A stretch of 64,000 bases of DNA from Streptococcus canis (GTDB taxonomy: Bacteria; Bacillota; Bacilli; Lactobacillales; Streptococcaceae). The stretch spans positions 617,001 through 681,000 of the forward strand of contig NZ_LR134293.1 of assembly GCF_900636575.1 (NCBI RefSeq), written 5' to 3'. Under the pieces are notes generated by a model. It had not been told where the DNA came from, did no database searches, and saw nothing but the letters and a program-made list of their open reading frames with translations. The translations under genes and the position numbers were made by a program. Below are positions 27,442-47,697 of the stretch, piece after piece; within the stretch, counting starts at the first letter, position 1; every line of letters starts with the position of its first letter.

Positions 27442-27764
27442 GTTTTGTCAAAAACGGTCCGAGGATTTCGGTCATTTATTAAGTCTGTTATAACAGTCCA
27501 TAAGAATGCGAGGACATTGTGACAAACCTTGTTGGACTTAGTTTGGCAGTTTTTACAAGGTGTTGACAGTCCTTAAGTATTGATATGACTGTTTTTTTGA
27601 AAAAATATAGGTTTTAATTTTCCTTAGACTTCCCTCAAAAGTCCATAAAAAGGTGAACAAAAAAAGACCTTTACAGGTCCTTTACACAATGAGTTCAGCA
27701 GGCAAGAACTAGCACCATATTAGGTGCTTTTTTATTAGGTTTGGAGAGATTGAGTTAAAGGGGA
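27442..27764. other. Left end of the mutS/mutL island: candidate attL and arm-type sites
   Basis: There is no gene here. AAACCTTGTT at 27524-27533 is repeated exactly at 47654-47663 beside mutL and is the best core candidate. AGTCCATAAG (27495) and AGTCCATAAA (27641) resemble the integrase-proximal GGTCCACAAA and AGTCCACAAA at 47603-47624, as arm sites would. A minus-strand terminator (GACC/GGTC plus T-run, 27664-27684) ends the sof unit, and GCACC/GGTGC with a T-run lies at 27707-27733. The exact boundary is not proven. Confidence 0.45.
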
Positions 27765-28691
27765 CTATTTCCACCAGTTAAACCAATTAACAGGGTTAAT
27801 ATATTTTGTGAAGGTAGACCAAGCTCTACTGAAACGTGTTTTCCAGTCTGTAGACGAAGTTCCTGTCTCCTGATTAGAATTTGGAATCTCTGCTTGTTTA
27901 GAGTTGTTTCTTTCATTCTGATTATCAGCAGTAGATTGTTGCTCCGTTCCCTTTTGATTTCGAGAATCAGCGCTACCCTTACTTAATAGACCCCTTGATT
28001 CTGAAACGGTAGTTTCAATTAGTGCATCCTGAGCTTCCGGTTCTCTTTCTTCTTCAATTTGTTTTTGAATTTCAGCTTTTTTCTTTTTTTCTTCAATAGT
28101 CTGTGAGTCTCTAAAAAAAGTACTACCAGCTAAAAAACCATCGTCTGATTTGAACCTTACTGCTAATGTACTAGGGAAAGTGGGGGGGGCTACAGTAATT
28201 TTTACTAGTAGTGGCGATGTACCTTGATTATCATTATACACAGCACTTAATTGCTGCGTATCTTTTTCTTCATTTTTATATGTTATTATTTTAGGGCTTG
28301 TATTTTTAGCTTTAGGAATACGATACTCGCCATTTGTTTTATTGTTGGAATCAATTTCGTTAGCTTTCAAATATTCTTCTTGTTTTTTATCGTTTATGGA
28401 TAGTGGGTTGTAATTTATATTATCTTTTTCTAGCCAGAAAGCCCAACCTGTCGGTAATGCGATTGTTATTTTGTTTTCTTGACTATCCATACTGACAAGC
28501 ACTTCATTTCCATTATCATCGATAACTTTTTGTTGACGTGGATCTCGCTCCCATTTTAGAGTCTCTTCTGTCTCTACTTGACTCACTTGGCTTGTTTCCG
28601 ATTCTGATGAACTATTCATTTCTTCCGCCTTCACATTCGTGGCTACACCTACAGTGAGCAATGCAGTAGCTAAAACTAATTTTTTTTTCAC
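27765..28691 (-). CDS. Secreted protein of unknown function downstream of sof
   Basis: I start at GTG 28691 because AAAGGAG lies 6 bases before it. The product has 308 residues and a Sec signal peptide (about 1-22, VKKKLVLATALLTVGVATNVKA). The mature part is polar, with a charged coiled-coil-like stretch near 205-225 (EEKKKKAEIQKQIEEERE), a low-complexity Q/N/S region and an odd Trp-rich C-terminus (YINPVNWFNWWK). There is no LPXTG motif. In S. pyogenes sof is followed by sfbX; this gene holds that position but lacks the fibronectin repeats and anchor, so it could be a truncated or unrelated partner. Confidence 0.6.
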   Translation of the reverse strand: MKKKLVLATALLTVGVATNVKAEEMNSSSESETSQVSQVETEETLKWERDPRQQKVIDDNGNEVLVSMDSQENKITIALPTGWAFWLEKDNINYNPLSINDKKQEEYLKANEIDSNNKTNGEYRIPKAKNTSPKIITYKNEEKDTQQLSAVYNDNQGTSPLLVKITVAPPTFPSTLAVRFKSDDGFLAGSTFFRDSQTIEEKKKKAEIQKQIEEEREPEAQDALIETTVSESRGLLSKGSADSRNQKGTEQQSTADNQNERNNSKQAEIPNSNQETGTSSTDWKTRFSRAWSTFTKYINPVNWFNWWK

Positions 28692-28798
28692 TATATTCTC
28701 CTTTAAGTAATTCATAATATTTTTAGTTTCCTACACAACATAAAACAAGAATCACTTTATACATGACCTTGTTTATGCTGTTTTATGACATTTAGTGA

Positions 28799-31612
28799 TT
28801 AATCAATCTGATTCTTACGATTTTTTTTACTGAGAAGTCCTGCCGCTCCAATAACAGTTAACGCTGCTATGCTAAAGAATGCTTCTGACTTATCTTTATC
28901 TCCAGTTTGAGGTAAGTTATTATCTACTCTAGCAATAGGAGTTTGAGAGATAGCTTTATTAATTGCAGGGCTAGGTTCTTCATTATCAAAGTGGAATTGA
29001 AGTTTAGGACGTGTGTCTTCTTCAATAACAGTAGCTTCATTAAAGCCAGACATACCAGATTGAGTTTCTTCTACCATATCAACAATATTGGCTTGTCCAC
29101 CCATAATAACTTCAGGTTGTTTCGTATCCTCAATAATAGTATCATCATTAGAGTGACCAGACTGATTAGAAAGCGTATCTTCTGTTATTTCAATCGGCTC
29201 ACTTTGCCCACCGATTGAAATTGTATCAGATTCTGGTTTGGTATCTTCGGTAAGTGTGGTTTGAGTGTTATCGTCATATTGTCCATGTTCAATCGGTAAC
29301 TGATGTATGGTTTCTTCCTCAAAGTTCAAGTTAGGACCGTGATCAGTAATAGGAGGTAATTCTGGTAGCTGAGGTGCTAGGGGCTCAATCACTTCTCCCT
29401 CAATCTCTGGTACAGGAACCATTTCTTTGGTGTATGTTAACTTGACATCATCAAGTTTCTGACCATTTGCTGATTTACTATTAATTTTGTAAGAAATAGT
29501 ATTTGAAATGATTTTTTCTGTTACCAATTCAAATTTAGGCTGTTCTGCTGGTACTGTAAGTTTCTTGTTTTTATTTTTCTTCTCAAGAGCGGTTTTAAAC
29601 TGGTCATTTTTAACCTTAAGTCGGTATGTTAACGTTAAGGTTTGCCCTTTTTCAAACGCATCTTTCAATTGCTTTTTAGAGATTTTCCATTCGAGGCTTT
29701 CTTTAGTAGTACCGAATAACCAAGAAGAAGAAGTATGCTTAACTGATTGCTTATCTCCGTTGCTATCTTTATAAGGTGAAGAGTTTTTCCACTGGTCTAC
29801 AACGGTGACTTTGTCTTCAAATTTTTCGGTGATGGTCACTTCCTCCAGGACATCTTTAAATTTATCTTTGTCATCAATATTTTTTAGGAAATCTTTTCCA
29901 TCTGACATATCTTTTAAATATTTGTCAAATTTTTCATTGCGTTCCTTAACTTGTTTTTTTGCCCTTTCTTCTTTTTCCGTTAAATATTTGGAATATGTTG
30001 GATAATTGGAGTTAAAATCAGCTGCTTTTGGAAATTTGGTAGGATCAGTAACATCAAATGAATAGAAAACAATACCTTCATCTCTTGCCATTTTGGCTTC
30101 AGCTTGTGCTGAAAGATTGTGGTTATAAAATTGATATTGACGACGATAAAATAAGTTATCTAATGCTTTATCAATCATCCAATCTTGTATTGTTTTCCTT
30201 GCAGTGTTCAATCCCAAATAGTCCAACCATTTATTTGCATTTTTCGGTTGTAACTTCTCAAGATTTTCCTTTATTTTAGCAGCTATAATAGTCTTCATTC
30301 CGACAGAATCAACCGTTCTGTCAGAATAACTTCGGAAATTATATCCCTCACCAACTTTATTAGAATAGTCAAAGTCAGTTTGCTTTAAGTTACTAGTATC
30401 TAAATCTGCCATGGTAATATAATCTAAAGGGTTCTTGATTCCAATTAGACTGCTACCCAAATTTAATAAAGTATTACCATTTGAAGCGAAACCTTTTAGT
30501 GCATCATTAAATTGAGTTATACCTATCTTATCTAAAAGGTTTATAAGCTGTTGCGCATCTTCCACAACATTATGTTTTTGGGTTGTTGTATCAAGATAAA
30601 AGGGCCAAGGTAGGAGCGGATTGCTATTAGCCACAGGCTCCGTTACTTCCTTCTTAGATACTTTTGTCTTATCTAAAACGTCATAGCTAAAAGTGGCTTC
30701 TCCTTGTGAGAAGAGAACAATATGTTGACGTTTACCAGATTTCTTTTCATTGTTGAAAATTTCTCTAGCTTTATGAATCGCTCCTTGTAAATCTACTCCC
30801 CAATCCCAATCATTTTTTGCGTCTTGTAAGATTTTATCTAGTTCTGTATCCACATTCTCAGTAGTTAATGAAATCGGATCATTTACTTTACGGTAAAAAC
30901 TAATCAAGCGAACAGAGTTACGACTATTATAGTTTGGAGTATTATCGGTGCTCCTAGAAGTCAATGTAGTCACTAATTTTTTGATATTTTCTTTGGCAGT
31001 ATTGAAGTCTTCATCAGTCATCTTTTTAGAAGTATCTAGAAGCACAATAACTTCTGCGCCTTTATCAATTTCTTTCGGTGTGACAGTTAGAGTGACTTCT
31101 AATTCGTTTTTGCTTTCATCAACTTTAACTTCCCTAGAAATGTCTACAATTTCACGTTGTTCCCCATCGCGGTTCTTAATAAGCTTTTTAGAGTCATCCT
31201 TCTCATCTTTGATGTCGATTTCAGTTTTTAAATTGTTAACGATAATAGTTTCCACTTCCATAAGCTGTGGTTCTGCAGATGCCGAAGCTGTCGAACGCTT
31301 ACTCCGTGATTTCGGCTGTGGAGCTGAACTTTCTTCATGGCTTTCAGTTGTTGTTTCGGAGGTTTGCTTTTCCTCAGCTCCTTCACTTTCAACCTTAGCA
31401 ATGGTATCAATGGAAGTAATTTGGTCATCTGTTGTAGTTGGTACTTCTTCTGTACTAGATGACTCTACCGCTACAGGCAAAGCAGTAAATTCAGTAGTAG
31501 TTGGTTGAGGAGTCTCATTTGCCATAACAGTTGTGGTGGTGAACATTGTTCCAACGGAAACAAGACCGACAGATAATTTCCGTAGTTTATACTTACAATT
31601 AGATATTTTCAT
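28799..31612 (-). CDS. sof: Serum opacity factor / fibronectin-binding surface protein (SOF/FnBA type)
   Basis: The 937-residue protein starts with a YSIRK-like signal (YKLRKLSVGLVSVGT), followed by an acidic variable region. A large domain (about 130-620) has a VWA-like core with AEVIVLLDTSKKM and FYRRQYQFYNHNLSA, as in the opacity domain of S. pyogenes SOF and S. dysgalactiae FnBA. Three or four fibronectin-binding repeats (GGQ...EDT pattern, about 775-890) and LPQTG at 900-904 with a membrane tail follow. SOF disrupts HDL and promotes adhesion. The MIDAS motif is atypical (DTSKK). It lies between the island's candidate attL and its phage-like genes. Confidence 0.85.
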   Translation of the reverse strand: MKISNCKYKLRKLSVGLVSVGTMFTTTTVMANETPQPTTTEFTALPVAVESSSTEEVPTTTDDQITSIDTIAKVESEGAEEKQTSETTTESHEESSAPQPKSRSKRSTASASAEPQLMEVETIIVNNLKTEIDIKDEKDDSKKLIKNRDGEQREIVDISREVKVDESKNELEVTLTVTPKEIDKGAEVIVLLDTSKKMTDEDFNTAKENIKKLVTTLTSRSTDNTPNYNSRNSVRLISFYRKVNDPISLTTENVDTELDKILQDAKNDWDWGVDLQGAIHKAREIFNNEKKSGKRQHIVLFSQGEATFSYDVLDKTKVSKKEVTEPVANSNPLLPWPFYLDTTTQKHNVVEDAQQLINLLDKIGITQFNDALKGFASNGNTLLNLGSSLIGIKNPLDYITMADLDTSNLKQTDFDYSNKVGEGYNFRSYSDRTVDSVGMKTIIAAKIKENLEKLQPKNANKWLDYLGLNTARKTIQDWMIDKALDNLFYRRQYQFYNHNLSAQAEAKMARDEGIVFYSFDVTDPTKFPKAADFNSNYPTYSKYLTEKEERAKKQVKERNEKFDKYLKDMSDGKDFLKNIDDKDKFKDVLEEVTITEKFEDKVTVVDQWKNSSPYKDSNGDKQSVKHTSSSWLFGTTKESLEWKISKKQLKDAFEKGQTLTLTYRLKVKNDQFKTALEKKNKNKKLTVPAEQPKFELVTEKIISNTISYKINSKSANGQKLDDVKLTYTKEMVPVPEIEGEVIEPLAPQLPELPPITDHGPNLNFEEETIHQLPIEHGQYDDNTQTTLTEDTKPESDTISIGGQSEPIEITEDTLSNQSGHSNDDTIIEDTKQPEVIMGGQANIVDMVEETQSGMSGFNEATVIEEDTRPKLQFHFDNEEPSPAINKAISQTPIARVDNNLPQTGDKDKSEAFFSIAALTVIGAAGLLSKKNRKNQID

Positions 31613-31925
31613 GTTTTTTCCTTAGTTTATTATTTTTTAAGCTTAATTATTTTACTATGAAAAACTAATCTTAAGCGAGGCTATTTATTTTAAAAAAATT
31701 CTTTTCCTGAACTTCTACATGGTATCTGTTGAAACAGAATATTATTCTATGTTCCAGAAAATGAAGAAAACAGGCTAAAATGCATTTATACGGGTATTCT
31801 TATTTTTTATTAAAAAATGAATCTTTACGAGATTTTTATTTTTAACGCTAAAAAAAATAAACCAAAACCAAAAATAAAAATAAATTTAAATTTGTGAGCT
31901 GTATTTAGGTGTGCATTTTTCTAGT
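31613..31925. other. AT-rich gap between sof and the arpU-like gene
   Basis: This stretch holds the sof leader (AAGGAAAAAAC ribosome binding site on the minus strand) and poly-A/T tracts such as a run of AAAAATAAA repeats near 31868-31890. I see no ORF, tRNA or clear terminator. A composition break here could mark a junction between the sof segment and the phage-like segment. Confidence 0.35.
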
Positions 31926-32303
31926 TTAGACTGCATTTGTCAGTACACTCTCTCTGTAAAGTTCCACAAATTCAAGTAAAGCTCTTTTCTTGGTCTCATA
32001 GTACCAGCTTTCAGAGTGATTCAGTTTCTTCATAAGTTCCTGATTGGATACGTTCTTACTAACCAAGTAACACTCAATCAGTATTTTTCTGTATTCTACT
32101 TTAGACAGTCGGTTAATGGCGTGCTTGATAGCGCCCAGTTCCTCTAGGGCGCATTCTCGGCTTATTTCAAGGTGTTCTCTGCGCGTGGGATGATATTCTA
32201 TATCAAACTGGTAACGCTCGTTATAGCTTAAATCAAGGCTATTAGCAATACGTTGCCATCTATGGAACTCTCTCAGCTTACGAACCGCATTTTTCTTGTT
32301 CAT
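31926..32303 (-). CDS. ArpU-family phage transcriptional regulator
   Basis: The 125-residue helical protein has a C-terminal sigma-region-4-like HTH (VSNQELMKKLNHSESWYYETKKRALLEF), as in the ArpU/RinA-like late-gene regulators of Gram-positive phages and islands. It overlaps the upstream DUF1492 gene by 26 bases. In phages this class activates late or packaging genes. Here it is the last phage-like gene on the minus strand before sof. Confidence 0.75.
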   Translation of the reverse strand: MNKKNAVRKLREFHRWQRIANSLDLSYNERYQFDIEYHPTRREHLEISRECALEELGAIKHAINRLSKVEYRKILIECYLVSKNVSNQELMKKLNHSESWYYETKKRALLEFVELYRESVLTNAV

Positions 32304-32640
32304 CTAATACCTCTAAAGCTTCTCTATGTAGTTTGAACACAGTGTTTCTTGAGTAACCTAGTTTATCGGGTATCTCATCCCATGATAAGCCATCCACATA
32401 TCTAGCTTTGATAACAGCAATCTGTCTCTCATCTTGCAATATGGCAATCATAGCCAGTCTCTTGTCGCGTTCTTTAGCTAAATATAAGAGCTGTCTAGCC
32501 GTACCATCTTCGATATGTCTTATTGCTTCAGGGTTGTGGAAATTATTCATCAGCCTGATGTCTTTATCTCGTTGCTCCTCAAATAAGGTTATTAAAGCGA
32601 AAAGTGGTTTCAATTCTTTAAGTTGTTCTTTAGCGCCCAT
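32278..32640 (-). CDS. DUF1492-like HTH protein
   Basis: The 120-residue protein has a helical N-terminus and a sigma-region-4-type HTH at about 80-110 (VDGLSWDEIPDKLGYSRNTVFKLHREAL). DUF1492 proteins are typical of streptococcal prophages and SpyCI-type islands, usually beside ArpU, as here. The ATG follows AAAAAGGAGCTAACC. Probably regulatory; the target is unknown. Confidence 0.7.
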   Translation of the reverse strand: MGAKEQLKELKPLFALITLFEEQRDKDIRLMNNFHNPEAIRHIEDGTARQLLYLAKERDKRLAMIAILQDERQIAVIKARYVDGLSWDEIPDKLGYSRNTVFKLHREALEVLDEQEKCGS

Positions 32641-32699
32641 GGTTAGCTCCTTTTTGATATAATTTAGTTAAGCTTAAATTTAACCAAGGAGGCGTTCGC

Positions 32700-32735
32700 A
32701 TGGACGTCTTTTTGTGGAGTCATAAATTTAAATAA
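32700..32735 (+). CDS. Possible 11-codon mini-ORF
   Basis: ATG with an ideal AAGGAGG eight bases upstream and a TATAAT at about 32657-32662. The peptide would be MDVFLWSHKFK. It could be a leader peptide for the secreted-protein gene at 32847 or a chance arrangement. Confidence 0.25.
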   Translation: MDVFLWSHKFK

Positions 32736-32846
32736 TGGTGTTTTTATGAACTTTAAATTATAGATATAGATGGTTATAATTAAAAACTTCGTAGAAGTGG
32801 TGTAAACTATCGAGACAGAAAAATAAAATAAGAGGTATATATAATT

Positions 32847-33317
32847 ATGACAACAAAAAAGAAATCACTTTTAGGTATTGGTTACCTATCTGTTGCTATG
32901 TTAGGCGCAAGTTTGTTAATGGCTAAGCCTGTTAGTGCGGAAGAAATGAGTGAGTCAGGGGATCAGGCTATGCGTTTAGTCACTCAGACTGGTAATAATG
33001 GTGTAGTCGAAGTAATTGAGGTTGCGGAAAATGGTGAAGAGCGTATTTTAGGTAGCACTCAAGATCCGTATTTTAAAGGGCGAGACGATGGCTATGATGC
33101 TGGCTATCAAGACGGTCAGAAGCCCGGCGCACCAGAAACCCCATCTTCAGATATTCCTGAGCCACAAGATATACCATCTTTTTATGATGAAAGCTGGTAT
33201 AAAAATGGATACAACGATGCCTATGTATTAGGATACCGTAATGGGTGGGATGATAATCACTATATCTGGTCAACATTAAGAAATGTATGGTATTTGGTGA
33301 CTTCTTACTTTTATTAA
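32847..33317 (+). CDS. Small secreted acidic protein with GYxxGYxDG repeats
   Basis: The 156-residue protein has a Sec signal peptide (about 1-31, cleaved after KPVSA). The mature part is acidic, with a repeated glycine/tyrosine motif: GRDDGYDAGYQDGQ near 83 and NGYNDAYVLGYRNGWDD near 120. It ends in an aromatic hydrophobic tail (WYLVTSYFY). It is on the opposite strand to its phage-like neighbours and has its own terminator, which is typical of island cargo. No family is recognised. Confidence 0.7.
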   Translation: MTTKKKSLLGIGYLSVAMLGASLLMAKPVSAEEMSESGDQAMRLVTQTGNNGVVEVIEVAENGEERILGSTQDPYFKGRDDGYDAGYQDGQKPGAPETPSSDIPEPQDIPSFYDESWYKNGYNDAYVLGYRNGWDDNHYIWSTLRNVWYLVTSYFY

Positions 33318-33336
33318 TTTTACTCTCTAGCCCTCA

Positions 33337-33365
33337 AGATTGAGCTAATAGCTCAGTCTTTTTTT
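33337..33365 (+). terminator. Terminator of the secreted-protein gene
   Basis: AGATTGAGC/GCTCAGTCT arms with a T7 run. Confidence 0.8.
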
Positions 33366-35132: not shown

Positions 35133-35401
35133 TTTTATACGTTTTATACGTTTGGTTTTTCAAACGTATAAAATTTAAAGTCAGTCGTATCAAGGGTTTA
35201 GGTCTCTTTTTATACGTTTTATACATTTTATACGTTAAATTAAAAAAGTATATATAAGGATTTATAAGGGGCTATTTTATTAATACTCTATACCGGAAAA
35301 TTTTAAAATAACGTGTTAAACGTGATAAACGTATAAACCCCTTGATATGACTGGGCTATTTCTTTATACGTTTAATTTTTTAAATGCTAAAACGTATAAA
35401 A
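35133..35401. other. Iteron array, probable replication origin of the island
   Basis: At least seven copies of TATACGTTT or its complement AAACGTATA, plus near-matches (TATACATTT, TAAACGTGATAAACG), occur in both orientations at roughly 35138-35160, 35161-35172, 35211-35236, 35318-35337 and 35363-35401. The stretch is very AT-rich and lies directly beside the primase-helicase genes. In SaPI/PICI islands the origin is an iteron cluster next to rep. Confidence 0.7.
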
Positions 35402-35404: not shown

Positions 35405-37093
35405 CTAAGTTTTCTTTTGATTTTTGTGTGCTGGCCAATGATTATAGTACCCACGTTCATTCTTTGGCTTTTTCTGTTTTTCGGGTGATGCTCTACCGTT
35501 AGCGTAAGATGCGCTAGCAAACGGGGGTAGATCTTCTTTAGGATAAAAACCTGTATGGAGCTGTCGACCTACTGGTATGACCTTCTGGCCTGCTTCAAAC
35601 CCTTCAGGTAGATTGCTTTTGATTTCTTTATGTAACCCTCTTTCTGATTTTATTTGTTTGATGTCATAGTATTCTAAAAAGCCTTTCCAAACATGATAGA
35701 CAAAGCTATTAGGAATAAATTCGCTGGTGAGCTCATCCGTGAAGAACTTAGAAACGAAGTCAATAACTGGGTTCATCTCTTTATGGTGTTCTTCTAGTAT
35801 CTCAATAGATGTTTTTGGATTAATGTCAGTGATTGGGGTTTCAATCGCTAGCTTAAGTAAGTACTCAAGAACTTCTTTGCGATTAATATAATCATTTCTG
35901 ATAGCTTTGTTGGGCTTTCCTTTAAATACTTTGGTAAAAGGTAAGATTCTAAAGCGTCTATCAATGGCGGACTTATCACCGTTCATTCGTGGTAAACCGT
36001 TGGAAGATTGTACCACAGTCATGTTTAAACGGATACTATACGGGCGTTTCCCCTTGTCCTCAATCGTCATAATGTCACCCGTGGCTAAACTAAATATATC
36101 AGACGTATCTTTGATAACCGCGTCTTTTTGAATATCATCACCAATTACAATGGATTTTCCTAAAAGTATAGATGTAGTAAAGCGGCTTTTTGCTAGCTCT
36201 GTTATTTTAAGGCTTGCTACGTTATCCATACCCACTAAATTAATGAGTAATTGCTGAAAAGTCCCTTTTCCTGTTCCACCTTCACCAAATAACCAGAAGA
36301 TTTTCTGCAATGATTGCCCTGTGATACTAGCTTTAATAATCTGAATAGCAAGGTTATAAAGTTCGGTGTCACCGTCAAACAACTCTAAGAGCCAAGTAGT
36401 GGGTTTCCATCCCTTTATTGTCGGTTCTTTGGCTTTCTTGTTGTAACTTGTCTTAATTTTGCGCGTGACGGTTATATCTGGAGTTAATTCTTCAAATCGA
36501 CCAGTTTTATAATTGTAGAGCCGATTTCCGATAACTGTATATTCTCTTTGAATCTCCTTCAGTTGACTTTGCCTAGCAATTTTGTAAAGTGTATCAAAAG
36601 CTTGTTTTTCAGTTGCGTTTGGGAAAATAACTGAAATAAGATCTTGTAAAAACTCATTATCTTCTAGCCAAACCCCGTGATCAGGATGAAAAAAGTAAAG
36701 TGGGGCTTTTTGTCCTTGAGCTTCAGGTTTAACTCGAATAAAGCGGAGATAGTGTTTAAGCATAATAGCCACGCCCAAAGGTGTTTTAGGTAAAGCCTTT
36801 TCACTGGCTTCTTGTCCTTTTTCTTTAGCTAATTCTTCATGTTGTACCTCGGTCAATCTACCCGCTTTTACGTTCTCAAGGTGCTTGCTATCAGCCATAA
36901 CGCCATCATAGGCAATCTTGAAAGCTTCATCTTTCATCTCTTGACATTCCTTGATAAGCTGACCCCTAACACCTTTGAAAGTGCTGAAATATTTATCTCC
37001 ATTCTCACGCGCTTCAGTGATTTCATTTTCTAAGTTTTTCAAATCTTCTTGCTCTATGGTTCTACCCTCTCTTTCTGTATTCTGCTTTGGCAA
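35405..37093 (-). CDS. P4-family phage/plasmid primase-helicase (SF3 helicase, D5 type)
   Basis: The 562-residue protein has an N-terminal helical region, a D5 N-terminal domain and an SF3-type ATPase with Walker A GEGGTGKGT at about 270-278, Walker B IVIGDDI and a motif C-like TVVQSSNGLP. The C-terminal region is a likely origin-binding winged helix. In PICIs such proteins bind iterons, melt the origin and unwind DNA. It overlaps the upstream primase gene by 32 bases, so the pair is coupled. The iteron array follows its stop. Confidence 0.88.
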   Translation of the reverse strand: MPKQNTEREGRTIEQEDLKNLENEITEARENGDKYFSTFKGVRGQLIKECQEMKDEAFKIAYDGVMADSKHLENVKAGRLTEVQHEELAKEKGQEASEKALPKTPLGVAIMLKHYLRFIRVKPEAQGQKAPLYFFHPDHGVWLEDNEFLQDLISVIFPNATEKQAFDTLYKIARQSQLKEIQREYTVIGNRLYNYKTGRFEELTPDITVTRKIKTSYNKKAKEPTIKGWKPTTWLLELFDGDTELYNLAIQIIKASITGQSLQKIFWLFGEGGTGKGTFQQLLINLVGMDNVASLKITELAKSRFTTSILLGKSIVIGDDIQKDAVIKDTSDIFSLATGDIMTIEDKGKRPYSIRLNMTVVQSSNGLPRMNGDKSAIDRRFRILPFTKVFKGKPNKAIRNDYINRKEVLEYLLKLAIETPITDINPKTSIEILEEHHKEMNPVIDFVSKFFTDELTSEFIPNSFVYHVWKGFLEYYDIKQIKSERGLHKEIKSNLPEGFEAGQKVIPVGRQLHTGFYPKEDLPPFASASYANGRASPEKQKKPKNERGYYNHWPAHKNQKKT

Positions 37094-37919
37094 TGCTGGT
37101 AAACGTCCTATCTATCTCATCAATAGGTAGTGGCTTGGTTGTCACGCTGTTGGCTATTTGTACCAGCTCATAAGCCGTCTCTAAATCACAATCAACCCAT
37201 TTATTAAATAGCAAGCCAACAAATCTAGTTAAGGCCACGTTACGCCCACCTTCATCTCCAAAGCCATTAAACAGGGTATCTATGACCCTCATGGTAATAG
37301 AACGCTGACTTCTAGGGCGTGGCGTGTAAGTAGTAACAACCTGTCTGTTTGGTGTGCTACCGTTTTTAGGGACAGGATAATCAAGACCACGGTTTACAGA
37401 GCGCTGATAGTCTTCTGGGGCGCCTGTTGTAACGGGTAAGCCTTGTAATTGCGACCAGGTAAGACTGCCTAAATCAAACGGTAGTCCAATCTTATCGGCT
37501 ATCTCCTTGACCACTTGTTTATAAGCAGCTTCAGTCATCACGTCACTAGGCTTCACGACAAGGCGATAGCGGGGCTTCTCGGGGGTGTGTTTAATCGTTG
37601 GATAAATAATATAACTATACTCCCAAAGTGTCTGAGAAACGATTTTAGGTAGGTTGACGCCTGTTTCTATCTCGTCATAGTCAAGAAAAATCAAATCACG
37701 ATAGACTAAACTAGCATTATTGCGCTTATAGCTCCCGTTTTTCTCTGCTGTGACCTTGCCGCTTAGGCAGTAGGGAGCTTGTGTTCGCTTGTATTCTTCA
37801 ATATCAATATCCTCAGGCGGTTTCAAAGGTTTAAACTGAGCAATATAGTCAAATGGTTCTAAAGGTCCTTTGTAGGGGTACAAATAAGAGCTAAAGCCTC
37901 TCGCTTCATAAATAGCCAT
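37062..37919 (-). CDS. Primase-like replication protein
   Basis: The 285-residue protein has a region (about 80-105) with YRDLIFLDYDEIE, an AEP-primase-like acidic motif, and YRLVVKPSD with the expected basic partner. It ends with a PriCT-like helical domain (FVGLLFNKWVDCDLETAYELVQIAN). It precedes the P4-type helicase by overlap. The two together equal the usual fused primase-helicase of other islands. The ATG follows AGAAAGGGGCAATGAT. Confidence 0.75.
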   Translation of the reverse strand: MAIYEARGFSSYLYPYKGPLEPFDYIAQFKPLKPPEDIDIEEYKRTQAPYCLSGKVTAEKNGSYKRNNASLVYRDLIFLDYDEIETGVNLPKIVSQTLWEYSYIIYPTIKHTPEKPRYRLVVKPSDVMTEAAYKQVVKEIADKIGLPFDLGSLTWSQLQGLPVTTGAPEDYQRSVNRGLDYPVPKNGSTPNRQVVTTYTPRPRSQRSITMRVIDTLFNGFGDEGGRNVALTRFVGLLFNKWVDCDLETAYELVQIANSVTTKPLPIDEIDRTFTSIAKAEYRKRG

Positions 37920-39511: not shown

Positions 39512-39640
39512 AATAGCTTCAATGTGCTATAATTTAAGACATAAAACCCCTTTAATAATAGCTTGCCTGCTTTATTAATTGAGTTTAGTTATACTAGTTA
39601 AAGGCTTGGAAGTTTGGTCGCTGTCAAAGCCTTTTTTGTT
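39512..39640 (+). ncRNA. Candidate ~100-nt small RNA opposite the early operon
   Basis: A + strand TGCTATAAT extended -10 (TATAAT 39528-39533) with a weak TGGTCA -35 17 bases upstream would start a transcript near 39540. An AAAGGCTT/AAGCCTTT terminator with a T6 run ends it near 39638. It contains no ORF. Thirty bases (39542-39571) match the int leader (46409-46438) at 28 positions. Confidence 0.5.
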
Positions 39641-40352: not shown

Positions 40353-40604
40353 TTTACTTTTGAATACTTTTTATCAAAAAAATATATCTTCTAAAGTTAT
40401 ATCAGGAAATAAAGGTAGTAATAGTTCTTTAAACACCAACTTCTCACTATCTTTAAAAGAATTTTTTCCAACTTCTTTATTGTGATAGCTTTGTTTGGTA
40501 ATTCCTAGCTTGTTACCTAATTCTTCCTGAGTAAACCCAAGCATATTTCTATAACCTCTAACTTTATTTTTTTTCAAATCCACACCTCCTTTACTTTTGA
40601 ATAC
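40353..40604. promoter_or_regulatory. Direct-repeat operators flanking the cro-like gene
   Basis: The 15-mer TTTACTTTTGAATAC occurs exactly at 40353-40367 and 40590-40604. Shorter versions (TACTTTTATTTACTTTT) lie near 40637-40660 in the cro/cI intergenic region. One copy sits at each end of the cro-like gene. They are candidate binding sites of the island repressor. Confidence 0.55.
40374..40577 (-). CDS. Cro-like XRE HTH regulator
   Basis: The start is a TTG at 40577 with AAAGGAGG 7 bases before it. The 67-residue protein is an HTH_3 domain (VRGYRNMLGFTQEELGNKLGITKQSYHNKEVGKNSF). It is divergent from the CI-like gene and leads the replication operon, the usual position of Cro/Str in phages and PICIs. 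Confidence 0.8.
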   Translation of the reverse strand: MKKNKVRGYRNMLGFTQEELGNKLGITKQSYHNKEVGKNSFKDSEKLVFKELLLPLFPDITLEDIFF

Positions 40605-40698
40605 CATTCGAGTATAACTGCTTGTTTTCATTTTGTCAATACTTTTATTTACTTTTAAAAAAAAATGCGTTATTATATACTAAAAAGGAGGTTTCCTT

Positions 40699-41490
40699 AT
40701 GAAAACCCATAATGCTCAAGTCGGCGAAAGAGTTAAGAAGATACGACTTTCGTTGGGCGAATCAATGGAACAATTCGGATCAAGGTTTAACACATCAAAG
40801 GGGACAGTTAATAATTGGGAAAAAGGGCGTAACTTGCCTAATAAAGAAAATTTAAAAAAGATTGCTGATTTAGGCAACAAAGAAGTGGTTGAACTTCTAT
40901 ATGGTAACTATGAAGATAGAATTTTCGATGAATTAAGAAATGCAGCTTGGCTGTATAATTTCGATGATATAGACCTTCACGAATTATCCAAACAAGTTAA
41001 TGACGATATCATAAGTAGGTATGGATACTTTTCTGATTTCAAACTACCTTATGTTGATATTTCTAATTATATAAGTTTTGCACTGGATAGGTTATTGATG
41101 AATAAAAAAGTATTTGAAATCTCTTCAGATTCGTTTTATAAAATCAATGCTATACCAACCTATTCTATAAAAAATGAAGATCCTAAAAACGAAGGGCTCA
41201 CTTTATCTTCTTTCACAAATTTAGAAATAGTTTTTAATGACTTTGAGACTGAAGAAGATATAGACAAAGTACAAATTAAATACAGCACACTATTAGAAAT
41301 AGACTTTGTGATTGTTCATAATCATTTAGAAAAAATAGTTTTTGAAGGATTAGAAAAAATTGAACAACCAAGATATAACAGCTTTTTCAAAAAAGAAATT
41401 CTAGACAAATTTAAGCAAAAAATTTCTAAACAAGTTTTTGAGTTTGCTAAGAAAGACTACTCACTTATGATTAGTCGATTAAAAGACTGA
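40699..41490 (+). CDS. CI/Stl-like island repressor
   Basis: The 263-residue protein has an N-terminal XRE HTH (RVKKIRLSLGESMEQFGSRFNTSKGTVNNWEKG) and a long C-terminal region with no S24 autocleavage motif. Such repressors (as Stl in SaPIs) are lifted by a helper-phage protein, not by RecA. The ATG follows AAAAAGGAGGTTTCCTT. It faces the cro-like gene across a 120-base regulatory region. Confidence 0.78.
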   Translation: MKTHNAQVGERVKKIRLSLGESMEQFGSRFNTSKGTVNNWEKGRNLPNKENLKKIADLGNKEVVELLYGNYEDRIFDELRNAAWLYNFDDIDLHELSKQVNDDIISRYGYFSDFKLPYVDISNYISFALDRLLMNKKVFEISSDSFYKINAIPTYSIKNEDPKNEGLTLSSFTNLEIVFNDFETEEDIDKVQIKYSTLLEIDFVIVHNHLEKIVFEGLEKIEQPRYNSFFKKEILDKFKQKISKQVFEFAKKDYSLMISRLKD

Positions 41491-41587
41491 TCATGCTCCA
41501 GATGGATTTTTAAACTGATTATTAGGCGCAACATGCCCCAACCATAGCTTTAGTCAAAAAAGCTACTGTTAGAAAGGAATGTAAGAT

Positions 41588-42412
41588 ATGGTAAAAATTA
41601 CGGCAAACGGGAGTGAAATTACACTATTAGCAAATAATACTGACTATGTCAGCTTAACTGATATAGCAAGATATAAAAATAGTGAAGACCCTAGAATGGT
41701 AGTCACTAACTGGCTTAGTTCTTACGCTACGATTGACTTTTTGGCAGCGTGGGAGGTACTAAATAATCCCAATTTTAAACGATTGGAATTCCAATCGTTT
41801 AGAAGTGAGCCTGGTCGACTAATTATTACTCCAAAACAATGGATTGAACGAATGAATGCTGTCGGTATCACCTCACGTTCAGGACGTGGTGGGGGCACTT
41901 ATGCTCATTCCGATATTGCTTTTGAGTTTGCTTCTTGGATTTCCCCAGAGTTCAAACTCTACATCATACAAGACTACCAAAGACTAAAGCAAGAGGAAGC
42001 TTATAAGAATCAAATTGAGTGGAGAGCCAATCGCTACCTATCTAAACTCAATTACGGTTTTCAAACTGATGCTGTTAAAGAACACATTGTTCCAACCATC
42101 ACACCAGCCCAACAACGTTACGCTTATGCCAATGAAGCAGACCTTGTGAATGTCGCTGTCTTCGGGATGACTGCCAAGCAATTTCAAAAACAATTTCCAA
42201 ATAAAGAAGGGAATCTAAGAGATAACGCTAGTATTGAAGAACTACTGGTTATCAATAACATCCAATTACTCAATTCTGAAATGATAAAATCTGGGATTGA
42301 TAGCCCAACTCGACTAAAAGAACTAAACCGAATAGCTAAAGAACAATATCAAACCCTTGTTAACAATAATCAAAAAGCTCTTCAAGAATTGAAAAAATTA
42401 GATAACAAATAA
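41588..42412 (+). CDS. KilA-N domain protein (antirepressor-like)
   Basis: The 274-residue protein has an N-terminal KilA-N domain (about 10-115, with DYVSLTDIARYKNSEDPRMVVTNWL and the conserved GRGGGTYAHSDIAFEFASWIS) and a helical C-terminus. KilA-N proteins are DNA-binding and often act as antirepressors in phages. It follows the CI-like gene after 97 bases, with its own AGAAAGGAATGTAAGAT ribosome binding site. Confidence 0.85.
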   Translation: MVKITANGSEITLLANNTDYVSLTDIARYKNSEDPRMVVTNWLSSYATIDFLAAWEVLNNPNFKRLEFQSFRSEPGRLIITPKQWIERMNAVGITSRSGRGGGTYAHSDIAFEFASWISPEFKLYIIQDYQRLKQEEAYKNQIEWRANRYLSKLNYGFQTDAVKEHIVPTITPAQQRYAYANEADLVNVAVFGMTAKQFQKQFPNKEGNLRDNASIEELLVINNIQLLNSEMIKSGIDSPTRLKELNRIAKEQYQTLVNNNQKALQELKKLDNK

Positions 42413-42855
42413 AAAAGCCCCGCGCTCAACTTTGGTCGGCGCGACTTCAGGATTATCGGAGAAGTTATTGGGAGTTTTACATCTAAATCATGACTATCTG
42501 ATACCCACGCGCCAAATGCCGCGATTTTTCGCTAATTTTGTTCACTTTACCTTTAAGGACTCGCATTTTGCTCTTTAAGACAGCCGAAAAGTCCGATTTT
42601 CTGAATACTATACGCTAAAAATGCCAACTGATTTTAGAAGCTGTCACAACGGAAAAGTAAATTAATAAACGACCGATATATCAAGTTTTTCAAGTTCTTT
42701 AAGTGAATTTACCGAGCGTTTTAGAACTATTGAAATAGGTTGACGTAATATGTCAGTACGTGCCAACATTTTCCAATATTTGGAAATTCTTTGGCTACTG
42801 TCGCAATAAAACATAAATCCCCATACTTGCTTACTGATGTTAGAAAGGAATTAAA
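42413..42855. other. Gap with no recognised gene downstream of the KilA-N gene
   Basis: It starts with a GC-rich hairpin (CGCGC/GCGCG, about 42420-42445) that could end the KilA-N transcript. The rest holds short dyads and no ORF that I can support. A GTTTTAGAACTAT segment near 42718 resembles the first bases of a type II-A CRISPR repeat, but only over 13 bases (see rejected items). Confidence 0.3.
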
Positions 42856-42945
42856 ATGATTGATATAACGATGATAGCTATTGTATCGCTTATCCTTGTG
42901 GTTATCTTGGTCTGTTACTCACTATACCTTCTTATCCGTAAGTAA
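42856..42945 (+). CDS. 29-residue hydrophobic membrane peptide
   Basis: The ORF has TTAGAAAGGAATTAAA as an excellent leader. The peptide is one hydrophobic helix (MIAIVSLILVVILVCYSLYL) ending in a short basic LIRK tail. The size and layout resemble type I toxin peptides and small phage membrane proteins. No antisense RNA promoter was identified, so a toxin role is only a hypothesis. Confidence 0.5.
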   Translation: MIDITMIAIVSLILVVILVCYSLYLLIRK

Positions 42946-43183
42946 CATATATGAAAATGTAGGGTGGTGTACCTTACCGTTACCGCTCATTTTATGACCT
43001 GTTCAAATTTCATGTCTAAATGCCAAGTTTTTTATCTTTACCTACGGCCAAACTCCTTGATATGTCTTTAATTTTCTTTAATTACAAGACCCTCAAAACT
43101 TAGCAAAAATTGGGGCATAATCTGAACTTTTCTGAACTTTTTGTCGGCGGCAATTAAAAAATTTATAAGTAAGGAGTTTTATT
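42946..43183 (+). promoter_or_regulatory. Leader of the deacylase gene
   Basis: TCTGAACTTT occurs twice in tandem just before 43145, and a GTAAGGAG ribosome binding site precedes the next ATG. I see no clear promoter; nothing else is recognised. Confidence 0.25.
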
Positions 43184-43672
43184 ATGAGTACTTTTAAAAA
43201 TGTTATTGCTGAATTAAAGAAATTGAATATCTCTTATGAGCTGGTCGAGCATGAACCAGCTTTGACCACAGAACAAGCTGACAGTTTTATTGAAGGTATT
43301 GAGGGAGTAAGAACAAAAACAATGTTCTTGACTAACAAGAAAAAGACGCAATATTACTTGCTGATAATGGATGACCAAAAGATGCTAGACATGGAAAACT
43401 TTAAAGAATTGGTTGGTGTTAATCGTATTCGAATGGCTTCTGCGGACAGTCTATATCAGAAAATGCTTTTACCTCCTGGCGTGGTTTCGCCCTTTGGGTT
43501 AATCAATAATCAAGATAAAGATATTCTTGTTTATTTTGACCAAGAAATCGTCACAGAAGAAAGAATGAGTTTTCACCCTAATACTAACGATAGGACTATC
43601 TTTATCAATACCAAAGACCTATTTTCTTTCTTAAAGCATCTCGGATATGAAGTTAATATCATTGAGTTATAG
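43184..43672 (+). CDS. YbaK/ProX-family aminoacyl-tRNA deacylase
   Basis: The 162-residue protein matches the prolyl-tRNA editing fold: the EHEPALTTEQAD start, KTMFLTNKKKTQYYLLIMDDQK, the Gly-rich GVVSPFGLINN motif with the catalytic-loop G-x-x-(S/T)-P-F-G, and VYFDQEIV. ProX-type enzymes hydrolyse mischarged Ala-tRNA-Pro. It is island cargo with no phage role that I know; it may buffer mistranslation or act on other substrates. Confidence 0.8.
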   Translation: MSTFKNVIAELKKLNISYELVEHEPALTTEQADSFIEGIEGVRTKTMFLTNKKKTQYYLLIMDDQKMLDMENFKELVGVNRIRMASADSLYQKMLLPPGVVSPFGLINNQDKDILVYFDQEIVTEERMSFHPNTNDRTIFINTKDLFSFLKHLGYEVNIIEL

Positions 43673-43736
43673 TCTGTATGAATTATAATAATTTACTTCA
43701 CAAAATATTTATATATTTTTTGCAAAGGACACAAAT

Positions 43737-44321
43737 ATGTCAAGTTCAAGATTAGAAGCATTCAGTGATGGTGTTTTAGCTATCATTATTACTATTATGG
43801 TCCTATCTTTAAAAGCTCCAGAAGCGGATTCTTTAAAAGCTTTGCTAAAAGTTGTACCTAGCCTACTAGCTTATGTTTTAAGCTTTGTTTATGTTGCAAT
43901 ATATTGGAATAACCACCATCACTTAATGAAACTAGTGAAAATAATCGATGGTAAAACCCTATGGTTTAACAATTTGTGGTTATTTTTTATTTCGCTGATT
44001 CCTTGGGCTACAGAATGGGTTAGTCGTTTTCACACTAGCTCTTTGCCTGTATTTATTTATGGTATAACGTTGCTAGGTACAGCTATTTCTTATTTCATTT
44101 TACAATCACAAGTTATTAAACTAAGCCCTAAACCATCGCTTTTAAAAGAGGCATTGGGCTCAGATATAAAAGGAAAAATATCTTTAGCTATATACATTTT
44201 TTCTGCAATTATTGCCTTCTATTCAGTGGTTGTATCAGAGTTAGGTTATCTGTCTGTTGCTCTTATATGGTTTATTCCAGATAAAAGAGTGGTTAAAGTT
44301 TTAGAGGATGAGAGCAGATAG
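43737..44321 (+). CDS. TMEM175/DUF1211-family potassium channel-like protein
   Basis: The 194-residue protein begins with the family signature RLEAFSDGVLAIIITIMVL, including the FSDG motif of the first pore helix. Five more transmembrane helices follow. Bacterial TMEM175 proteins form tetrameric K+-permeable channels. It follows the deacylase gene by 64 bases and overlaps the next long frame. Cargo; any role in island or host fitness is unknown. Confidence 0.82.
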   Translation: MSSSRLEAFSDGVLAIIITIMVLSLKAPEADSLKALLKVVPSLLAYVLSFVYVAIYWNNHHHLMKLVKIIDGKTLWFNNLWLFFISLIPWATEWVSRFHTSSLPVFIYGITLLGTAISYFILQSQVIKLSPKPSLLKEALGSDIKGKISLAIYIFSAIIAFYSVVVSELGYLSVALIWFIPDKRVVKVLEDESR

Positions 44322-44373
44322 GAAAACTTTATTGAGTATTCTTAAAATGAGTTTATCGAGAAAGGAACAGATT

Positions 44374-44625
44374 ATGAAAGAAAATAAATTATTGCCTGTC
44401 ATTAGTCTTATTATAAGTATTATCTCTTTGTTAGATAACTTCTTAATATTTATTTCTTATGGACATACTTACCTCTCTATAATAGCCATTATTCTAGCAA
44501 TCTTAAGCTTTTTTTATAACCAGCAAAGTAGGAAAGATTTATCGTGGATTGCACTTGGAATATCGTTAGTTTCCTTAGCAGTAACTATCTATTTTTACTA
44601 TCATCCAATTGTTATCCCATACTAA
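44374..44625 (+). CDS. Small membrane protein (83 residues)
   Basis: I start at MKENKLLPVISLI because GAGAAAGGAACAGATT precedes it; the longer frame from 44308 overlaps the channel gene. The protein has three hydrophobic segments with a short charged loop (YNQQSRKDLSW). It is probably co-transcribed with the channel gene and a following 54-residue membrane ORF. No family is recognised. Confidence 0.65.
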   Translation: MKENKLLPVISLIISIISLLDNFLIFISYGHTYLSIIAIILAILSFFYNQQSRKDLSWIALGISLVSLAVTIYFYYHPIVIPY

Positions 44626-44658
44626 GCCGCAACTATCACGAAGGGAGTAATACATCGT

Positions 44659-44823
44659 TTGATCACTTTAATCTTTTTTACCCTAAGCTTGGCTTTAACC
44701 GTAACGGGAGTAATCTCTCTTATTATCGGAAACTTAAAAAAACGTAATGACATTATTAAACACGGTGTTTTTAAAGCTGCTTTAGGGATTGCTATTCTAA
44801 TAATCATTAAACTATGCTTTTAA
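44659..44823 (+). CDS. Small membrane protein, probable TTG start (54 residues)
   Basis: The frame from TTG at 44659 has GGGAG 11 bases upstream and codes two hydrophobic helices (LIFFTLSLALTVTGVISLII and ALGIAILIIIKLCF) around a basic loop. It is shorter than usual annotation limits. It follows the 83-residue membrane protein and shares its character, so a paired small membrane module is possible. Confidence 0.45.
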   Translation: MITLIFFTLSLALTVTGVISLIIGNLKKRNDIIKHGVFKAALGIAILIIIKLCF

Positions 44824-45038
44824 CGAGAATTTAGAATCATTTGTATTTCTAAAGTTTCTGATACAGATTATCATGTTATTTGTTTATCAACGAAAGTGTT
44901 ACAGGTAAAATCTATTAGACTATTTATTGAGTAGTTGCATAAAGTGTTATAAAAATATGCATAAAATTATTTTTATTCATTTTGGTAACGCTAAGGAATG
45001 CTAAGAGCGCTAAAGACTATGCTTTCTAACTATACCCT

Positions 45039-45196
45039 TTGACTTCTTTATCAAACAAAGCTATAATGGACATAGAAAAAGGAGATTGCGTAAACAATCT
45101 CCTGTGGTAACACCGTTTAAGATGGCAGCCTTACCGTATTTGTTTATATTTTCTATAAACCGTCCACGATTGGCTAAAGTGTGGACGGTTTTTCTA
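45039..45196 (+). ncRNA. Candidate ~125-nt structured RNA
   Basis: A near-consensus promoter (TTGACT 45039-45044, 17-base spacer, TATAAT 45062-45067) would start near 45074. The RNA opens with a stable hairpin (GGAGATTG at 45081-45088 pairing with CAATCTCC at 45095-45102) and closes with a perfect 11-bp terminator stem (45157-45167 with 45181-45191) plus T5. The 5' hairpin buries a GGAG sequence. Frames in it run through the terminator, so a protein product is unlikely. Confidence 0.6.
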
Positions 45197-45351
45197 TTTG
45201 TTCTTGTTATTCATGATAGCTACTATCAGAGTACCAAAGGCAATCATTTTCCAGAGCTCGAATCTATGTAGACCTTGACCTAGTTTTTAGATATGCAAAA
45301 CTTGCTCTGAAACTCTTTATACCTTACCATTAGACCATAGAAAGGAAAAGC
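45197..45351. other. Leader of dinD
   Basis: No promoter is obvious. AGAAAGGAAAAGC precedes the dinD ATG. No further structure recognised. Confidence 0.3.
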
Positions 45352-46206
45352 ATGAACGAATTACAACATTATGACGAATTAGCTTTCGAAAATATTAAAC
45401 ACATAGATGAAAACGGTGTAGAGTTTTGGTATGCCCGTGAATTACAAACTGTTTTAGAGTATGCTAAATGGGACAATTTTTTAAACGTTATTGAGCGGGC
45501 TAAAATAGCTTGTGAAAACACTGGAAACCCCGTCGCTATGAATTTTCCTGAGGTCAGCAAAATTGTACAGCTCCCTCTAGGAGATAGGGAGATTAAAGAT
45601 TATAAACTATCTCGCTATGCCTGCTATTTGATTGTCCAAAATGGTGACCCTAGAAAAGAAGTCATTGCACTGGGTCAATCATATTTTGCTATTAAAACCC
45701 GTCAGCAAGAACTAGCTGATAATTTCAACAAACTCGATGAAGAGCACAAACGTTTAGCGATTCGCCAAGAGATGAAGGAACATAATAAATCATTAGCTGA
45801 AGCTGCTAAAATGTCGGGTGTCACTAACTACGGCAAGTTTCAAAACTTTGGATATAAAGGCCTTTATGGTGGGATGTCTATGCAAGATATTCATGATAGA
45901 AAAGAACTAGAAAAAGGGAAAAGTATTCTTGATTATATGGGTAGTGCTGAATTGGCCGCTAACTTATTCCGTGCTACTCAAACCGATGAAGTGTTAAGAA
46001 ATCGGCAGATACACGATGAAAATCTAGCTAACGATACACACTTTAACGTAGGTAGAACAATCAGAAAAACAATGCAGAAACTAGGCACAACTATGCCCGA
46101 AAATCTCCCTACACCTCGAGAGAGTATCCAAGATTTGAAAAAGAAACATAAACAACTAGATAAACAACCAGACGATAATCAACTTTCACTTTTTGATGAT
46201 ATGTAA
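45352..46206 (+). CDS. dinD: DNA damage-inducible protein D (DinD family)
   Basis: The 284-residue protein has the DinD layout: a BRO-like N-terminal domain (FWYARELQTVLEYAKWDNFLNVIERAKIAC), the KDYKLSRYACYLIVQNGDPRKEVIALGQSYFA motif and a C-terminal helical region ending in QLSLFDDM. E. coli DinD inhibits RecA filaments. It is typical of SpyCI islands near int, where it may tie island behaviour to DNA damage. Confidence 0.9.
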   Translation: MNELQHYDELAFENIKHIDENGVEFWYARELQTVLEYAKWDNFLNVIERAKIACENTGNPVAMNFPEVSKIVQLPLGDREIKDYKLSRYACYLIVQNGDPRKEVIALGQSYFAIKTRQQELADNFNKLDEEHKRLAIRQEMKEHNKSLAEAAKMSGVTNYGKFQNFGYKGLYGGMSMQDIHDRKELEKGKSILDYMGSAELAANLFRATQTDEVLRNRQIHDENLANDTHFNVGRTIRKTMQKLGTTMPENLPTPRESIQDLKKKHKQLDKQPDDNQLSLFDDM

Positions 46207-46457
46207 AAAATAGGCAATAATATCCTCGTATAGCTATTTCAACTCTCAATCATATAAATTTATCAACTTACCTCCAAAAAAACAAAAAAGCCCCCGCAAG
46301 TTTTCCACGCTCGCAAGGTCTTAAAAGCCTAATATTATACCATGATTTTCTTTTATAATATTTCGGTATTTACCCGATACCATTATTATACCATGATATG
46401 AACTAATCTAAAACCCTTTTGATAATAGCTTGCCTGCTGATGGAAAGGTTTATGATC
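46207..46457 (+). promoter_or_regulatory. int promoter and leader with direct repeats
   Basis: TATAAT at 46354-46359 may be the int -10. TATTATACCATGAT occurs at 46333-46346 and 46384-46397 (51 bp apart), flanking it. GGTAT/ATACC forms a small hairpin at about 46364-46382. The 30 bases at 46409-46438 match 39542-39571 at 28 positions. A GCCCCCGCAAG..CTCGC segment near 46291-46315 is a weak terminator for dinD. Confidence 0.5.
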
Positions 46458-47603
46458 ATGAAAATAACAGAGCATAAGAAGAAAAATGGTACAATCGTTT
46501 ATCGTGCTAGTATTTATCTAGGCATTGACCAAATGACAGGTAAGAGGGTAAAGACAAGTATAACAGGGAGGACGAGAAAAGAAGTTAATCAAAAAGCCAA
46601 GCACGCGCAGCTTGACTTCCTATCTAATGGATCTACAATTAAAAGAAGAGTTGCGATTAAAACATTTAAAGAACTTAGTCATTTATGGCTTGAAACCTAT
46701 AAGTTAACAGTAAAGCCTCAAACTTATGATGCTACTGTTACTAGACTTAATCGACATATTATGCCAACTCTGGGCAATATGAAGGTTGATAAGATAACCG
46801 CTAGTGATATTCAAATGCTGATTAATAGATTATCTAAATATTACGTCAATTATACTGCGGTACGTTCAGTCATCCGAAAAGTTCTCCAACAAGGAGTATT
46901 GCTAGGACTAATAGATTATAACCCAGCAAGAGATATTATCCTTCCAAGGAAGAAGCCAAACGCTAAGAAAAAAGTTAAGTTTATTAATCCGTCTGATTTG
47001 AAGTCTTTTTTAGAGCGTTTAGAAAGCGGCCAACACAAGCGCTATAACCTATACTTTGATTCAGTCCTCTACCAGCTTTTATTATCCACTGGTTTGAGGA
47101 TAGGCGAAGCCTGCGCATTGGAATGGGGAGATATTGACCTAGAAAATGGTACAATAGCTATCAATAAGACTTACAATAAAAATTTGAAGTTTTTGAGTAC
47201 AACTAAAACCCAGTCAGGCAATAGAGTGATTAGTATTGACCAAAAGACCATTAGAAGTCTAAAGCTCTACCAAATGAGACAGCGACAATTATTTAATGAA
47301 GTTGGTGCGCGTGTGTCAGAGGTAGTGTTTGCCACGCCAACAAGAAAGTATTTTAATGCTTCGGTTAGACAAAGTGCTTTAGATACTAGGTGTAAGGAAG
47401 CAGGGATTGAACGCTTTACTTTTCACGCTTTTAGACACACTCACGCTAGTTTATTGCTGAACGCTGGTATTAGTTATAAGGAACTTCAGTATCGCTTAGG
47501 ACATGCGAATATCAGCATGACTTTGGATATCTATGGCCATCTTTCTAAGGACAAAGAAAAAGAAGCCGTTTTATATTATGAAAAGGCTATGAATAATTTA
47601 TAG
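46458..47603 (+). CDS. int: Tyrosine recombinase (integrase) of the mutL island
   Basis: The start at 46458 is chosen because GGAAAGG lies 9 bases before it. The 381-residue protein has an arm-binding N-terminus (MKITEHKKKNGTIVYRASIYLG), a core-binding domain (about 60-165) and a catalytic domain with Arg in STGLRIGEAC, HAFRHTHAS, GHANISMT and Tyr in LDIYGHL. It lies 95 bases from the mutL start. It is expected to catalyse insertion into the 5' end of mutL and excision, as SpyCI integrases do in S. pyogenes. Confidence 0.94.
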   Translation: MKITEHKKKNGTIVYRASIYLGIDQMTGKRVKTSITGRTRKEVNQKAKHAQLDFLSNGSTIKRRVAIKTFKELSHLWLETYKLTVKPQTYDATVTRLNRHIMPTLGNMKVDKITASDIQMLINRLSKYYVNYTAVRSVIRKVLQQGVLLGLIDYNPARDIILPRKKPNAKKKVKFINPSDLKSFLERLESGQHKRYNLYFDSVLYQLLLSTGLRIGEACALEWGDIDLENGTIAINKTYNKNLKFLSTTKTQSGNRVISIDQKTIRSLKLYQMRQRQLFNEVGARVSEVVFATPTRKYFNASVRQSALDTRCKEAGIERFTFHAFRHTHASLLLNAGISYKELQYRLGHANISMTLDIYGHLSKDKEKEAVLYYEKAMNNL

Positions 47604-47663
47604 GTCCACAAAAAAGTCCACAAATTAATATTTTGAGAGGTGTAAACCTAATGAAACCTTGTT
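47603..47663. repeat. Right end of the island: arm-type sites and attR candidate
   Basis: GGTCCACAAA (47603-47612) and AGTCCACAAA (47615-47624) follow the int stop. AAACCTTGTT at 47654-47663 equals 27524-27533 and lies 35 bases before the mutL ATG. The layout arm-core-mutL fits an integrated attR. Confidence 0.5.
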
Positions 47664-47697
47664 ATATCAACGTTTAGAAAGTGTTAAAAACAAAATT

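Follow-up and report, generated by a model that had tools for sequence, protein, structure and literature searches.

Does an island that separates mutS from mutL in Streptococcus canis act as a switch of mismatch repair, and what does it bring with it? The stretch analyzed here (the window) comprises 64,000 nucleotides, positions 617,001 to 681,000 of contig NZ_LR134293.1 (assembly GCF_900636575.1), from a genome that forms a single contig of 2.08 Mb. In the window, mutL starts 20.3 kb beyond mutS and an integrase open reading frame (ORF) is located directly ahead of it; the intervening element is here called ScaCI. The explanation that we consider probable is that ScaCI is a phage satellite whose integration strands a probable mutL promoter at its far end and would make the strain a conditional mutator, and that the satellite carries the serum opacity factor gene sof as cargo.

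ScaCI is integrated at the mutL start codon

A previous reading, made from the letters of the window without database searches, had proposed an island of the SpyCI or phage-inducible chromosomal island type at this site. Its gene layout (mutS ending at 27390, mutL starting at 47698, and an integrase abutting mutL) is confirmed, the plus-strand integrase ORF being at 46419 to 47603, and the type of island and its location at the mutL 5' site are borne out by conserved attachment (att) arms and by a mutL-specific tyrosine integrase that is 96% identical to that of SpyCIM1. Att sites flank the island at the mutL start, and its genes include a divergently arranged repressor and Cro pair as well as primase and replicase genes. 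Among 20 island proteins compared with Pfam and 10 compared with PHROGs, none was assigned to a capsid, tail, or terminase, the smaller ORFs lying outside the scan.

Both ends share the 8-bp stretch TGACAAAC without change (27520 and 47699), which gives an element length of 20,179 bp. The left border, originally put at 27442, was ~78 bp too far to the left, as the shared core begins at 27520. The attL site was placed at 27516, where both the conserved left arm and the leader of mutL are found; a candidate at 32843, based on an 11-nucleotide (nt) match, was rejected. At the same core position, 12 of 14 related IMG/VR stretches read ATGACAAACATTATTG and the other two ATGACAAAAATTATTG (one other change), part of this core being fixed by the retrieval pattern, which already demanded part of the leader and RTGACAAA. 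The right junction was nearly identical in all four stretches retrieved by a right-arm pattern. Two published SpyCIM1 attP primer pairs predict products of 462 and 96 bp here, compared with the published 461 and 96 bp (PMC3430984); the attP-L and attP-R primers, which give the 462-bp product, fit the window perfectly, whereas one primer of the second pair has three mismatches in it. At the level of sequence, these comparisons identify ScaCI as a SpyCI-type phage satellite that is site-specifically integrated across the mutL start codon and that severs the mutL operon from its upstream signals.

A probable mutL promoter is stranded at attL

The leader TGTTATAATAGTCCATAAGAATGCGAGGA directly precedes mutL in three other loci, with one mismatch in L066 and none in G033 and G051. 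In the window, it stands not before mutL but on the mutS side of the island, at 27486 to 27514, with one mismatch; this is the sole match at three or fewer mismatches in the 64 kb, and none of 100 shuffles gave one. The leader is followed there by GTGACAAACCTTGTTG, the sequence at mutL being ATGACAAACATTATTG. Of 30 loci, 25 had an element of the TGnTATAAT type (one mismatch allowed) in the 70 nt preceding mutL, compared with 18 of 540 control windows; these loci, the 30 best matching of 51 matched genomes with the window included, are related and not independent. The five loci without the element include both island-bearing ones, i.e., this window and S. phocae. The enrichment suggests that mutL has its own promoter of the extended -10 type, which, if true, would change the view of how these islands silence mutL and why some do not. 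The mutL operon had been described in the sequence-only reading as having no clear promoter. Near mutL this is so, the eight promoter-like sites called at 45800 to 48000 being at chance level (shuffle mean, 7.0; standard deviation, 2.6), but the probable promoter stranded at attL had been overlooked. A terminator-like hairpin after mutS was called by the consensus scan in the window and in L066, not in L103.

Does a mutL switch operate?

Integration leaves the probable extended -10 promoter of mutL and its ribosome-binding site 20 kb upstream, at attL, and puts mutL-lmrP-ruvA-tag behind int, whose stop codon is 94 bp from the mutL start. While ScaCI is integrated, mutL output would be low and dependent on transcription that reads through from int; excision would bring mutL back to its promoter and so produce a conditional mutator of the kind represented by SpyCIM1. 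The open integrase frame, the SpyCIM1-like att and attP geometry, and the separation of mutL from its leader all speak for such a switch. Curing of SpyCIM1 lowered the mutation rate 200-fold (PMC4689407), which indicates that the mutator mechanism exists in S. pyogenes; by analogy, a growth-dependent switch may operate in the strain of the window.

Several observations weigh against this reading. The final -10 base at the leader is C (TATAAC) here versus T (TATAAT) in the 14 aligned stretches; the consensus scan, which requires a -35 element, called no promoter at the leader either here or in L066; and primer extension in S. pyogenes detected no mutL start in the 500 bp analyzed, which was read as a single mRNA from mutS (PMC3430984). 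The repressor and Cro of the window are unmatched in the SpyCIM1 record. The published int-mutL primer pair predicts 694 bp here versus the 655 bp printed for SF370 (694 bp is the Manfredo value), and the attB quantitative PCR pair predicts 139 bp versus the printed 65 bp (PMC3430984). The attL and attR cores differ at 3 of 19 positions, and no terminator-like site was called at 45800 to 48000, a region that covers the int-mutL gap (1.3 expected). Relaxed selection on mutL, considered as a sign of silencing, was not seen: compared with G174, the ratio of nonsynonymous to synonymous substitution rates (dN/dS) was 0.062 for mutL and 0.053 for mutS (lmrP, 0.077; ruvA, 0.065; tag, 0.067). Finally, excision of SpyCIM4 was not observed, yet mutL was transcribed (PMC8115907).

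The last four of these points also support an alternative that we consider unlikely, though it is the strongest competitor: that the island is locked in, attL having decayed, so that it rarely or never excises, and that mutL is expressed steadily from the int side with no switch, as in strain Manfredo, with its promoter inside int, or in the emm4 strains with SpyCIM4. The three attL core changes and TATAAC, which would fit such decay, occur in none of the 14 aligned relatives, two of which have one other core change. However, both ends share TGACAAAC exactly, and normal attB/attP variation could account for the differences around it; the integrase has an open frame, and the arms are conserved; and MGAS10750, an emm4 strain with SpyCIM4, was measured to be a 4.7-fold mutator (PMC3430984).

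sof is located within the island ends

The left end of ScaCI holds sof, which had been overlooked in the earlier reading and whose product has an opacification domain, fibronectin-binding repeats, and an LPXTG anchor. Because the native mutL leader and attL are both on the mutS side of sof, the gene is placed within the att ends by its sequence context. It is flanked by p316 and arpU, both of which have relatives in other islands: p316 homologues were found in 10 of the 43 IMG/VR loci with the neighboring regulator, and sof in none of the 43, many of these contigs being without the left end. No sof was detected by tblastn in catalogued phages or plasmids, nor in IMG/VR by a six-peptide scan, whose reach is limited to close relatives. 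With sof and the secreted-protein gene within the att ends, gain of the adhesin and block of mutL would be a single event, provided that they move jointly.

A 2026 report on an S. canis serum opacity factor, ScSOF of strain IMT49926, describes an adhesin that has a lineage-bound distribution and a mechanism not yet resolved (PMC13357522); the terms mutS, mutL, island, mobile genetic, integrase, and locus tag are absent from the main text of that report. Of the 43 IMG/VR island loci, 15 match the 14-nt core of the upstream-arm ScSOF primer at no more than one mismatch, and in L103 the match falls in arpU, at a position homologous to 32133 of the window, where the window has three mismatches. 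No fetched locus matches the full 22-nt upstream primer, cloning tail included, at five or fewer mismatches, and the downstream primer is without a counterpart at the expected place in the window. An island context for sof is thereby suggested in IMT49926 also. The partly available open-licence literature contained no statement placing sof on a mutL island, supplementary files and figures being outside this scope, and in a paper that names serum opacity factor, mutL, and mutS together, the words were incidental.

Among 194 genomes of the genus, sof was found in 9 (E value of 1e-30 or lower, the window's genome included), and in 5 of these (this window, S. phocae [G018], G033, G051, and G174) it occupies the mutS-mutL interval. 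For the remaining four, mutS, mutL, and int were unmatched within the 17 to 18 kb fetched around sof. In the close relative G174, the gene is surrounded by short remnants of the left and right arms and by a weak int relic (34% identity). In S. phocae, a hybrid attR/attL (L095, 5531 to 5590), suggestive of a tandem insertion of two islands at mutL, separates a broken sof from an island whose int is open. S. catagoni, found via its integrase, carries p316, sof, and o135 at a different locus, together with a repressor relic and a split int. The order of p316, sof, and int is that of the window, and the S. catagoni mutL has the native leader.

Alternatively, sof could be a resident of the mutS-mutL interval of several streptococci, the island having landed beside it, which we judge improbable. 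The presence of sof in this interval in five of the nine sof-positive genomes is consistent with such residence. In G033 and G051, sof is found on the left side of the native leader with neither int nor att arms, which counts against sof as cargo; a p316 relic suspected there by eye is represented by short, weak matches to p316-type genes (best E value, 0.005). The S. phocae sof is also outside the open-int island, to the left of the hybrid site. A single island-borne sof clade was considered but not borne out: in a tree of one region from 10 sequences, most nodes were weakly supported, the island-linked copies were not united, and the S. phocae sof grouped with the G033 and G051 copies (support, 95). 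On the other hand, the native leader and attL of the window place sof inside the att ends, and the S. catagoni sof accompanies a split int away from mutL. From its placement in relatives, G033 and G051 included, sof is tied to the mutL locus more widely than to recognizable islands, and the resident and cargo explanations compete.

We tentatively propose, with slightly more doubt than confidence, that sof, the lineage-bound adhesin gene of S. canis, is cargo of the mutL-targeting satellite, that adhesin and conditional mismatch-repair block arrive in one transfer, and that decay can leave sof at mutL. Island decay of this kind would explain the position of sof in the mutS-mutL interval of several streptococci. 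For S. canis, both the island and the idea of a switch had already been published; with a patchily distributed, characterized adhesin within the att ends of a satellite that splits the mismatch repair genes, its distribution becomes a testable question of mobility.

That mutL is permanently silent and the strain a constant mutator is very hard to credit, since, although the leader and probable promoter are separated from mutL, the mutL, lmrP, ruvA, and tag genes are full length and their dN/dS values compared with G174 are 0.062 to 0.077.

Other features of the island and its surroundings

The features of the locus are collected in Table 1.

Table 1. Features of ScaCI and the adjacent genes (positions in the window)
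Feature	Position	Strand	Basis or remark
mutS	24835..27390	+	Family models confirm MutS
Terminator-like hairpin after mutS	27410..27439	+	Consensus scan alone
Stranded native mutL leader	27486..27514	+	Putative extended -10 (TGTTATAAC here, TGTTATAAT elsewhere) and Shine-Dalgarno-like GCGAGGA
attL	27516..27534	+	16/19 match to attR; alignment with 14 related stretches
Left arm repeat, putative integrase arm-type site	27641..27661	+	Resembles right arm 47604..47624; conserved in 14 related stretches
p316, putative secreted protein	27765..28715	-	Homologues in related islands; no family match
sof, serum opacity factor	28799..31612	-	VWA, fibronectin-binding repeats, LPXTG anchor; NF040483, 471.6 bits (cut-off, 150); Pfam
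ArpU-like transcriptional regulator	31926..32303	-	Left limit of Javan97 record
Sigma-70 region 4-like regulator	32278..32640	-	
156-amino-acid putative secreted protein	32847..33317	+	In Javan97
Replication protein (D5_N/Pox_D5, primase-helicase)	35405..37093	-	98% to SpyCIM1
Primase (PriCT_1)	37062..37919	-	97% to SpyCIM1
Cro-like helix-turn-helix protein, lysogeny module	40374..40631	-	
CI/XRE-like repressor	40699..41490	+	
KilA-N protein	41588..42412	+	Matches PADLOC candidate defense model
YbaK-like aminoacyl-tRNA editing protein	43184..43672	+	
TMEM175-like membrane protein	43737..44321	+	
DinD	45352..46206	+	NF008573, 371.4 bits (cut-off, 242)
Integrase, tyrosine recombinase, 383 amino acids	46452..47603	+	Within ORF 46419..47603; frame open
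attR, spans mutL start codon	47695..47713	+	Comparison with attL; right-junction comparison
mutL	47698..49680	+	Family models confirm MutL; ATG at 47698 consistent with relatives
lmrP (major facilitator superfamily [MFS] transporter), ruvA, tag	49691..52091	+	RuvA confirmed by family model

The lmrP product matched general MFS and sugar transporter models only, so that its name rests on the sequence-only reading and the literature. Tag matched Pfam Adenine_glyco (243.4 bits), its NCBIfam score (205.9) being below the cut-off of 232.5.

Six further loci, some of them covering just a portion of an island, gave no match to the 156-amino-acid protein. Repeats near 32843 to 33039 align at about the offset of the mutL start, and the product was considered as a MutL-like fragment; this was rejected as chance, as it has no significant similarity to MutL (best E value, 6.1). 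The KilA-N and DinD proteins match the PADLOC candidate defense models PDC-S22 and PDC-S13.

The sequence AGCAGGCAAG, possibly a regulator site, occurs three times in the window (0.15 expected): at 27697 (plus strand) near the left end, at 39562 (minus strand) in mid-island, and at 46429 (minus strand) at the int start. Each of five other island sequences checked has at least two copies. Short, iteron-like direct repeats (TTTTATACGTTTTATACGTTT; 35133 to 35237) lie beside the replication gene. A second integrase gene (5435 to 6643, minus strand; 35% identity) suggests another mobile element in the window. Elsewhere, S. castoreus (L056, 7954 to 10657) has kept, in its mutS-mutL interval, the ends of an island together with a fragment of int and a secreted-protein-like gene, and Javan125 of S. 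dysgalactiae (L101), with two lysogeny modules, may be a composite of two islands.

Comparison with known systems

Javan97 of S. canis is the same element as ScaCI, with 15,673 of 15,678 positions identical, kilA, ybaK, and dinD next to int, and the same mutL 5' site. However, its record ends at 31926, so that the left 4.4 kb with p316 and sof, as well as attL and the probable stranded promoter, lie beyond it; the words opacity, fibronectin, and LPXTG are absent from the 2014 main text on Javan97.

ScSOF of IMT49926 is a serum opacity factor of the same species, and both sof-internal primers fit the window with one mismatch each. Serum opacification has been shown for that allele (PMC13357522), whereas the allele of the window is known from sequence alone.

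As with ScaCI, mutL follows an integrated island in Manfredo (SpyCIM5) and in emm4 strains (SpyCIM4). Manfredo has a broken int, with the promoter inside it, and excision was not seen for SpyCIM4, whereas the int frame is open in the window.

SpyCIM1 of S. pyogenes SF370 (Javan490) shares with ScaCI the integrase (96%), the replication genes (97% to 98%), the site, and the attP geometry, but its record has no match for the repressor, Cro, ybaK, TMEM175, dinD, and sof of the window. Excision and the mutator state were measured for SpyCIM1 in S. pyogenes, whereas ScaCI is described here by its sequence.
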